From Myxococcaceae bacterium JPH2 (GTDB taxonomy: Bacteria > Myxococcota > Myxococcia > Myxococcales > Myxococcaceae): DNA of 64,000 nucleotides. Position 1 is the stretch's first letter, and every line of letters begins with the position of its first letter. The notes beneath the pieces are model-generated. The model worked only from the letters and a program-made list of their open reading frames with translations. It searched no databases and had not been told where the DNA came from. The stretch lies in NCBI GenBank assembly GCA_016458225.1, contig JAEMGR010000012.1, positions 62,001 to 126,000 of the forward strand, in the 5' to 3' direction. Position numbers and translations under genes: made by a program. Of this stretch, positions 23,450-25,656 are shown one piece after another.

Positions 23450-23660
23450 GGGTCGTGTTCTCCTCGTCGGGTCTCCTGCCCGTGGCAGGTTGGATGCGCG
23501 TCACTCTATTCGGTCGCGCCGGGCGGCGTGCGAGCACGCGTGCGCCCACTCGCGCGGGTGACGTGGGCGCGGACTGGCGAGGGTGCGCGGCGCGGCGGCC
23601 GCGGAGGCTCCAGCGTTGATGCGAAGGTCCATCCACCCATGGACGCGAGGGAGCTTCGCC

Positions 23661-24077
23661 ATGCGCATTCGTGACCTGATGACCAAGAGCCTGGAGACCA
23701 TCGGACCGGACGAGCCCCTGCGCCAGGCCGCCGAGCGCATGCGCGTCCACAGCATCGGCGCGCTCCCCGTCATGGAAGGGGGCCAGCTCGTGGGGATGCT
23801 CACGGACCGGGACATCACCGTGCGCTCCACCGCCATGGGCAAGGACCCGAACGCCACGCGCGTGCGCGAGGCCATGACGTCCGCTGTCATCACCTGCGGG
23901 CCGGATGATCCCTTGAGCGAAGCCGAGCGCCTCATGGAGGACTGGATGGTCCGCCGCCTCATCGTGGTGGACGCGGATCGCCATCCGCTGGGCCTCATCA
24001 GCCTGGATGACCTGGCCACCGTGCCGAGCGAGCGGATGGTCGAGGCGAGGGAAGAGGCGCAGCGCTCCCCGTTGTGA
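23661..24077 (+). CDS. Tandem CBS-domain protein
   Basis: The 138-residue protein consists of two CBS motifs and little else. The first spans RIRDLMTKSLETIGPDEPL to LVGMLTDRDI and the second VREAMTSAVITCGPDDPL to PLGLISLDDLA. Stand-alone CBS pairs bind adenine nucleotides and act as energy or redox sensors. The ATG at 23661 has GAGGGAG about 9 nt upstream; an earlier in-frame start at 23583 does not. It is not obviously in an operon. Its ligand and partner are unknown. Confidence 0.9.
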   Translation: MRIRDLMTKSLETIGPDEPLRQAAERMRVHSIGALPVMEGGQLVGMLTDRDITVRSTAMGKDPNATRVREAMTSAVITCGPDDPLSEAERLMEDWMVRRLIVVDADRHPLGLISLDDLATVPSERMVEAREEAQRSPL

Positions 24078-24164: not shown

Positions 24165-25367
24165 TCAGGCGGCTCGGCGTGGCTGGCAGTCCGCGGCCAG
24201 TCGGGCCACGGCGTCATCCCATGACAGGTCTTGCTGCGAGCCGTCGCGGAGGCGCAGGCGCACGTTGTTCGCCTCCGCCTCGCGCGCGCCCACCACCGCG
24301 ATGTAGGGCAGGCCGGCCTGGTGCGCGTCGAGGATCTTCCGCGACAGGGATTCCCCTCGCACGTCGGCGCTGGCGCGACACCCTGCCTCGCGCAGGCGCT
24401 CCGCGAGCTTCTCCGCGTAGTGCACGGCCTTCTCTCCCACGGAGGCCACCACCACCTGCTCCGGCGCGAGCCAGGCGGGGAGGGCCCCCGCGTGGTGCTC
24501 CAGCAGGATGGCGATGAAGCGCTCCACGCTGCCGAACAGCGCGCGGTGAAGCATCACCGGGTGGCGCCGCGCGCCCGACGCGTCCGTGTAGCGCAGGTCG
24601 AAGCGCTCGGGCAGCACGAGGTCGAGTTGGATCGTCCCGCACTGCCAATCGCGGCCCAGTCTGTCCTTCAGGATGAACTCGAGCTTGGGGCCGTAGAACG
24701 CGCCCTCGCCCGGTTGCATCCGACAATCCAGGCCCGCGGCGCGCGCGGCGGACAGGAGCCAGGACTCGGCCTGATCCCACACCGCGTCACTTCCGGCGCG
24801 GGACGGCGGGCGCCCCGAGAAGGCCACCTCCACGTGCTCGAAGCCGAAGCTCGCGTAGAACGCATGCAGCGCGCGCACGAACGCGATGACCTCTCGCTCC
24901 ACCTGCTCCTCGGAGCAGAAGATGTGGCCATCGTCCTGCGTGAACTGCCGCAGGCGGAACAGGCCATGCAACGCGCCGCTCGGCTCACTGCGGTGCACGA
25001 GCCCGAACTCGCCGAGCCGCAGGGGCAGGTCCCGGTAGCTGGGGGACATGCGCTGCACGAGTTCGATGTGGCCGGGGCAGCTCACGGGCTTCACGGCGAG
25101 CTGCCGCTCACCATCCCCCAGCACGAACATGTTCTGGCGGAAGTTGTCCCAGTGGCCGCTGCGCTCCCACAGCTCCTGGGACAGGATTTGCGGCGTGCGG
25201 ACTTCCTGGTAGCCCTCGCGCCGCATGCGCTGGCGGACCTGGTCCTCCAGCAGCTGGTACAGCCTGAAGCCGCGCGGGTGCCAGAACACCATGCCGGGCG
25301 CCTCCTCCTGCAGGTGGAAGAGGTCCAGGCGCTGGCCAATCGCGCGGTGATCGTGTTCGTCGAGCAT
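24165..25367 (-). CDS. Threonyl-tRNA synthetase paralogue lacking TGS and editing domains
   Basis: The 400-residue protein is only the catalytic core and anticodon-binding domain of ThrRS. It begins MLDEHDHRAIGQRLDLFHLQ, exactly where the class II core of full-length ThrRS (about 640 residues) starts, so the N1 (TGS) and N2 (editing) domains are absent. Motif 2 (HRSEPSGALHG...FTQDDGHIF) and motif 3 (MLHRALFGSVERF) are intact, and the three zinc ligands are present: Cys in PVSCPGH, His in DDGHIF and His in MLHRA. The C-terminus has the anticodon fold (ASVGEKAVHYAEKL, ADVRGESLSRKI, VVGAREAE). The start has GGAG 10 nt upstream; a longer in-frame start at 25412 would add non-family residues and read through the leader region. 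It should charge tRNA-Thr but cannot clear Ser-tRNA-Thr itself. A Thr-rich leader and terminator precede it (25428-25562). Confidence 0.94.
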   Translation of the reverse strand: MLDEHDHRAIGQRLDLFHLQEEAPGMVFWHPRGFRLYQLLEDQVRQRMRREGYQEVRTPQILSQELWERSGHWDNFRQNMFVLGDGERQLAVKPVSCPGHIELVQRMSPSYRDLPLRLGEFGLVHRSEPSGALHGLFRLRQFTQDDGHIFCSEEQVEREVIAFVRALHAFYASFGFEHVEVAFSGRPPSRAGSDAVWDQAESWLLSAARAAGLDCRMQPGEGAFYGPKLEFILKDRLGRDWQCGTIQLDLVLPERFDLRYTDASGARRHPVMLHRALFGSVERFIAILLEHHAGALPAWLAPEQVVVASVGEKAVHYAEKLAERLREAGCRASADVRGESLSRKILDAHQAGLPYIAVVGAREAEANNVRLRLRDGSQQDLSWDDAVARLAADCQPRRAA

Positions 25368-25427
25368 GACTGCGTGTCTCCGTGTCGGAAGGGAAGTTGC
25401 CGGTCCGGACACGGGGCGCTGAGTCTT

Positions 25428-25472
25428 CGCACGGTCGCCCCGGCCGGAATCGGCGGGGCAGGGACCGTGCGC
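25428..25472 (-). terminator. Attenuator terminator hairpin upstream of the ThrRS paralogue
   Basis: On the minus strand GCGCACGGTC (25472-25463, segment 3) pairs over 9 bp with GACCGTGCG (25436-25428, segment 4). The stem continues inward as GCCCCG/CGGGGC and CCG/CGG around a 4-nt loop, with one 3-nt and one 1-nt bulge, about 18 bp in all. It lies between the leader-peptide stop and the synthetase start. No long U-run follows. Confidence 0.8.
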
Positions 25473-25500
25473 TCGTCAGTCCATCGACACGCGCACGGTC
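25463..25500 (-). promoter_or_regulatory. Antiterminator pairing for the Thr attenuator
   Basis: GACCGTGCGC in the end of the leader peptide (25500-25491, segment 2) is perfectly complementary over 10 bp to GCGCACGGTC (25472-25463, segment 3). Segment 3 is the same strand used by the terminator, so the two structures exclude each other. A ribosome stalled on the Thr codons (25544-25518) would leave segment 2 free to form the antiterminator; one that reaches the stop at 25476 would cover segment 2. Just before segment 2 a UUCG-capped hairpin (CCGC-UUCG-GCGG, flanked by CCAC/GTGG) also lies within the Thr codons. Confidence 0.75.
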
Positions 25501-25562
25501 GCCACCTCCGCCGAAGCGGTAGTGGTGCTCGTAGTCGCGGTCGTGAAGCTGACGCAGCTCAT
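25476..25562 (-). CDS. Threonine-rich leader peptide (28 aa) of a ThrRS attenuator
   Basis: A short frame starts at ATG 25562 and stops at TGA 25478-25476. Its 28 residues include eight threonines, seven of them at positions 7-15 in the run TTATTSTTT. That density is far above chance and sits directly upstream of a threonyl-tRNA synthetase gene, followed by competing hairpins. The peptide itself has no expected function; its translation would sense charged tRNA-Thr. No good Shine-Dalgarno site is seen before the ATG, which is the main doubt. Confidence 0.75.
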   Translation of the reverse strand: MSCVSFTTATTSTTTASAEVATVRVSMD

Positions 25563-25656
25563 GCGGACATGAATGTTCTGGGCCGCGCGAAAAGTCAAGG
25601 CGACCCGCAATGCGCGTGAGGTGGGTGATGAACACCTCACGGCGCGAGACAACCGC

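Follow-up and report, generated by a model that had tools for sequence, protein, structure and literature searches.

A truncated ThrRS paralogue and its Thr-rich leader

The window, that is, the whole 64-kb stretch of DNA analyzed here, encodes on its minus strand a 400-aa threonyl-tRNA synthetase (ThrRS) paralogue, P0001 (thrS; 24165-25367), with a class II core and an anticodon-binding domain. Its only Pfam matches are PF00587 and PF03129, and it aligns to residues 241 to 616 of the 642-residue ThrRS chain 1qf6, as well as to stand-alone catalytic constructs, indicating that it has neither the TGS nor the editing domain of the N-terminal part. Residues C97, H148, and H274, which we take by homology to be the Zn ligands, are invariant in nine relatives. 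In addition, the source genome encodes a ThrRS of full length (about 680 aa). A CBS-domain gene on the plus strand (23583-24077) is convergent to the paralogue gene, and a similar CBS-domain gene also lies downstream of the paralogue at locus L009.

The element described here lies upstream on the same minus strand and begins with a leader ORF of 28 codons, MSCVSFTTATTSTTTASAEVATVRVSMD, whose ATG is at 25562 and whose stop codon ends at 25476. Its predicted sensor is the run TTATTSTTT (25518-25544), in which 7 of 9 residues are Thr, confirming the Thr-dense 28-codon frame reported in an earlier note on this DNA. Among ORFs of 45 codons or fewer, this leader ORF is the only one in the window to have 6 or more Thr in any 9 residues.

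Searches at the family, class, and phylum levels recovered orthologues of the truncated paralogue with about 54 to 96% identity, which form a monophyletic clade apart from the housekeeping enzymes (support, 99/95), the inner order of the long branches L035, L036, L098, L171, and L172 being unsure. Their 58 readable upstream regions come from Myxococcaceae of several genera, including Myxococcus qinghaiensis (L064) and Corallococcus carmarthensis (L087), from another Myxococcales family (L144), and from the class Polyangia; the loci from outside the class, within the same phylum, are L098 (Polyangiaceae), L171, and L172. A Thr-rich short ORF with 5 to 8 Thr in 9 residues lies upstream of the paralogue in all 58, compared with 2 of 76 upstream regions of full-length thrS, both short and weak, when the same detector was applied to these negative controls, taken from a paralogue-based contig scan that mostly gave full-length proteobacterial ThrRS. 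Across 25 representatives, the leader frame contains 191 Thr and the two other frames contain 13 and 8, and the Thr codons are a mixture of ACC, ACG, and ACT whose third positions vary while the Thr frame is kept. Where the Thr run differs in length, nearly all aligned leaders differ by whole codons. Together, the in-frame bias, the mixed codons, and the whole-codon indels point to selection on codons and not on a DNA repeat.

Two observations from this survey stand apart. Upstream of full-length thrS at L075 and L142 (Cupriavidus and Methylibium), short ORFs have 5 Thr in 9 residues (MNKTTRTTTAGQRQ and MTPRTTTTFDRVCPTAA), and these ORFs before proteobacterial thrS could be chance or another Thr leader. 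At L016 (G036:C1:6435918-6437117), the paralogue has one in-frame TAG and an intact leader; the TAG could be a sequencing error, a stop at the very end of the gene, or a sign of recent loss.

Promoter spacing and genomic distribution

The leader ORF is preceded by a -35 box, TTGACT (25593-25598, minus strand), and, at 17-bp spacing, by a -10-like box, CATTCA (25570-25575). The TTGAC box is conserved in relatives, most often 36 nt before the leader start codon (47 of 58 regions) and 35 to 39 nt before it in 54 of 58, and the alignment of 30 upstream regions places a -10-like box, CAYCTT in most relatives, about 17 bp after it. The pair in the window puts the predicted transcription start at the leader ATG. 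Transcription starting at the start codon would mean that the leader ORF is probably leaderless and needs no Shine-Dalgarno (SD) sequence. The poor ribosome-binding site, which the earlier note had listed as a weak point, would be explained by a leaderless ORF.

A pattern search for this promoter plus a Thr leader gives a single occurrence in the source genome, and the only recurrent matches in 193 Myxococcota genomes are those at the paralogue gene; the remaining matches are scattered, and a reversed control yields the same kind. Upstream of the housekeeping thrS (L039 and L040), that of the source genome included, a tRNA gene takes the place of a Thr leader. Since the pattern is confined to the paralogue and the housekeeping thrS lacks a Thr leader, the element belongs to the backup gene. 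At L039/L040, the tRNA gene follows a TTGACA box and directly precedes the full-length thrS, and co-transcription of the two genes is possible; read by eye, the anticodon of this tRNA is GAC (Val).

Competing helices in the leader RNA

Six segments can be recognized in the leader RNA, all on the minus strand: segment 1 is the Thr-codon region, and the others form the competing helices 2:3, 3:4, 4:5, and 5:6. Segment 2 (25488-25512) lies within the leader ORF and pairs with segment 3 (25452-25474), which is assigned from duplex energies, shuffles, and covariation and would have segment 2 as its partner in the stalled state and segment 4 in the unstalled state. Segment 4 (25429-25445), defined by shuffle tests on 3:4 and 4:5, pairs with 3 or 5. 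Segment 5 (25405-25418) pairs either with 4, leaving the SD of thrS free, or with 6 (25378-25388), hiding it; segment 6 holds this SD (GGAG, 25381-25378) and is supported by a double change and by its remaking in relatives. The duplex energies in the window are -38.7 (2:3), -29.3 (3:4), -22.1 (4:5), and -10.5 (5:6) kcal/mol. Both helices proposed earlier are present with altered dimensions: the 2:3 helix, given as 10 bp, is longer (GGCGGAGGUGGCGACCGUGCGC with GCGCACGGUCCCUGCCCCGCC), and the 3:4 hairpin, given as 18 bp, has about 16 bp. The -35/-10 pair, segments 5 and 6 (25418-25378, beyond the interval considered at that time), and the thrS start at 25367 had been overlooked. The folded region exceeds its dinucleotide shuffles in stability (z score, -4.0; 0 of 200 shuffles), which shows only that the inverted repeats are not due to chance, since the plus strand was folded.

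Among the representatives, the median shuffle p values are 0.014 for 2:3 (25 representatives), 0.008 for 3:4, 0.03 for 4:5, and 0.10 for 5:6, values that come from related sequences and hence are not independent, so that combined p values are not to be taken literally. The stretches of segment 5 that pair with 4 and with 6 overlap by at least 4 nt in 23 of 24 representatives. With few exceptions among the representatives, L098 being the clearest, the leader stop codon falls in the gap from segment 2 to segment 3 or on the border of segment 3. In 19 aligned Myxococcaceae, helices 3:4 and 5:6 together have 93.5% of cells paired versus 89.6% in shuffles (0/500), a covariation of 0.130 versus 0.062 (0/500), and 20 double-change cells (0/500), and slid controls reach at most 49% paired each. 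For 2:3 and 4:5, 89.1% of cells are paired, with 8 double-change cells (0/500) and a covariation equaled in 8 of 500 shuffles. Helix 4:5 is near-invariant within Myxococcaceae, so that its covariation support comes from a few distant loci.

Individual relatives illustrate how the downstream helices have been maintained. A double change in A2 turns pair 164/197 of helix 5:6 from U-A into A-U, and this helix is rebuilt from unrelated sequence, with differing loop lengths, in L098, L171, and L172. Beyond Myxococcaceae and into class Polyangia, both 4:5 and 5:6 are remade as CCGGACGGGGC:GCUCCGUCCGG and GCUUGCUCC:GGAGCAAGC in L172 and as GGACGGGGCC:GGCUCCGUCC and UCCUUGG:CCAAGGA in L098, and L144 has a remade helix of this set, GGUUGGGGC:GCUCCAGCC. 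Thr codons and stems in relatives, whose lack would have told against the attenuator in the earlier note, are thus both kept, with Thr-rich leaders in 58 of 58 loci and compensating changes accompanying 2:3 and 3:4. Sequence and comparison establish the conserved leader, the promoter spacing, and the four competing helices, and this conservation lifts the attenuator reading from a guess to a strong inference.

Modeled folding of stalled and unstalled leaders

We modeled folding, for nascent and full-length RNA, by allowing only the RNA downstream of the ribosome footprint to fold. In this model, a stalled ribosome gives the nascent window leader 21.9 pairs of 2:3 and 13.2 of 4:5, and a ribosome at the stop codon gives it 17.9 pairs of 3:4 and none of 4:5. 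Among the representatives, the nascent stalled state has 2:3 in 15 of 25 and 4:5 in 15 of 25, the 10 without 4:5 mostly being those in which 3:4 is already preferred, and a ribosome at the stop codon leads to 3:4 in 22 of 25. The untranslated window leader folds into 1:2, 3:4, and 5:6, an OFF state like that of classical attenuators.

At equilibrium, the full-length RNA of most representatives retains 5:6 even when stalled; a clear switch appears only in L011 and L015, and the window gives a partial one, about half and half. For almost all sequences, the partition-function probability that the whole SD is unpaired is close to zero whether the ribosome is stalled or not; it is uninformative as a measure and speaks in part against a pure equilibrium switch. 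Because 5:6 is favored again in the finished RNA, either the ON state would be set co-transcriptionally, before segment 6 emerges, or the model is incomplete. This dependence on co-transcriptional folding order is the main weakness of a model of translational attenuation.

Proposed mechanism and alternative explanations

We consider it probable that the element is a leader-peptide attenuator governing translation initiation of an editing-less backup ThrRS, and most likely the enzyme would be made only when Thr-loaded tRNA runs short. From the conserved features we infer ribosome stalling, a folding order, and an effect on thrS as follows. The mRNA would begin at or beside the leader start codon, where the ribosome would initiate without an SD. 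With ample Thr-tRNA, it would cross the Thr codons to the stop codon near the loop between segments 2 and 3 and mask segment 2, so that 3:4 and then 5:6 could form and hide the thrS SD (OFF). When Thr-tRNA is scarce, either because threonine is low or because the housekeeping ThrRS fails, the ribosome would stall on the Thr run, leaving segment 2 free to form 2:3 and releasing segment 4, which would pair with segment 5 once this is transcribed and leave the SD in segment 6 open (ON).

A Thr leader-peptide attenuator on the truncated ThrRS paralogue was the central proposal of the earlier note, and it is borne out by the Thr-rich leaders at all 58 loci and by the mutually exclusive helices; its proposed output, transcription termination, is not. 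In such a classical attenuator, 3:4 would terminate transcription unless 2:3 forms. The competition between 2:3 and 3:4 is genuine, and at L144 a U-run, GUUUCGCUUUU, follows hairpin 3:4. However, in 24 of 25 representatives no stretch of 8 nt behind 3:4 contains more than 4 T, L144 alone having 5, which makes an intrinsic terminator unlikely, and termination does not account for the conservation of 4:5 and 5:6 or for their overlap. Thus, the missing U-run, together with a conserved 4:5/5:6 pair that covers the thrS SD, is better fitted by control of translation initiation, and we regard classical termination as unlikely, even though a Rho-assisted or U-less terminator may serve as a variant of it. 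As the sole leader with a U-run, L144 might also use termination.

Autoregulation by ThrRS through a translational operator that mimics tRNA, the mode known from E. coli thrS, concerns an identical gene family and likewise involves a folded SD, yet it does not require the Thr-rich ORF that is present in 58 of 58 loci, and it fits poorly with a 5:6 helix remade from unrelated bases with differing loop lengths. Moreover, we recognized no anticodon-arm mimic when looking over the leader by eye, and an Rfam scan, which includes T-boxes and known leaders, gave no family above chance, its miRNA and sRNA matches all being at chance level and well short of the gathering scores; we hold this explanation to be very improbable. 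It is just as hard to credit that the ORF is merely a conserved small protein or repeat without regulatory role and the structure a chance product of GC richness. Strong folds do come easily in a GC-rich region, but the helices beat both shuffles and slid controls and carry double changes, the leader stop codon keeps its place relative to segments 2 and 3, and the element is found only before the paralogue gene.

If control of translation initiation operates as proposed, a wider and more doubtful picture can be drawn, in which a phylum-wide emergency circuit would respond to Thr-tRNA shortage through a leaderless Thr peptide and a six-segment cascade that turns on a non-proofreading ThrRS. Such a circuit, if it exists, would be used during starvation or antibiotic attack, when it would either keep translation going at the price of accuracy, with Ser entering at Thr codons, or stand in for a housekeeping ThrRS that is inhibited.

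Relation to known leader peptides and duplicated synthetases

In the E. coli thrABC attenuator (thrL), which responds to Thr and Ile, and in the his, trp, leu, and phe attenuators, a ribosome stalled in an ORF dense in cognate codons chooses between 2:3 and 3:4. The myxobacterial leader resembles them in its short ORF dense in codons of the regulated amino acid; however, they have a U-run terminator and an SD-led leader, whereas here the U-run is absent in 24 of 25, the target SD is masked, and the leader is apparently leaderless. Control of an aminoacyl-tRNA synthetase gene by a leader peptide through its own amino acid is known from E. coli pheM-pheST. Attenuators of Streptomyces trpS and leuS have been described as classical, i.e., acting by transcription termination (PMC1262725). 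All three link a leader peptide to the synthetase gene of the same amino acid, as here, but they concern other amino acids, act by termination, and control synthetases that are not stripped of an editing domain.

Leaderless leader peptides are found in the mycobacterial poly-Cys sORFs. Sinorhizobium trpL likewise encodes one (PMC7298713), and a title cited in PMC10272879 concerns a C. glutamicum ilvBNC leader without an RBS. These cases share an ORF at the mRNA 5' end or lacking an RBS and differ in amino acid and taxon; trpL and ilvBNC use transcription termination, unlike the proposed myxobacterial thrS leader. In translational attenuators of the ermC type, alternative helices hide or free the target SD, and the sensor is an antibiotic-stalled ribosome. 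The same kind of alternative helices is found in the translational T-boxes of actinobacterial ileS (PMC1262725). Masking of the SD is thus common to these systems and ours, but the T-box sensor is a tRNA-binding RNA and the ermC sensor a ribosome stalled by antibiotic, in contrast to the Thr-codon run here. A second ThrRS that works beside the first under stress has been described in Anabaena (T1/T2; PMC4787780), where the stress is zinc shortage, the editing domain of T2 is degenerated, and a leader peptide is not described, whereas the editing domain of the myxobacterial paralogue is absent.

The literature searched contains no mention of a thrS leader in myxobacteria, although a survey of attenuation at aminoacyl-tRNA synthetase operons (doi 10.1134/S0026893310010164) may list some such genes; both the combination of features and the target are, to our knowledge, new. 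If the proposed mechanism is true, it would be, as far as could be found, the first case of a threonyl-tRNA synthetase under a ribosome-stalling attenuator, and it would unite a leaderless leader ORF with amino-acid sensing and with SD masking in place of termination, three features that seldom occur together. It would also offer a testable reason why many myxobacteria have a second, editing-less ThrRS, namely, as a backup for Thr-tRNA shortage only, and its deep conservation in Myxococcota suits the element as a model. Beyond this clade, L037 and L038 (genus g5 of the same family) carry an independently placed and far more diverged truncated ThrRS with a small Thr-containing ORF upstream (MASRCATTTCTTPHLGPRTAA and MGSLFATTTCTTPRTGPCTAA), and this control may have arisen a second time there.
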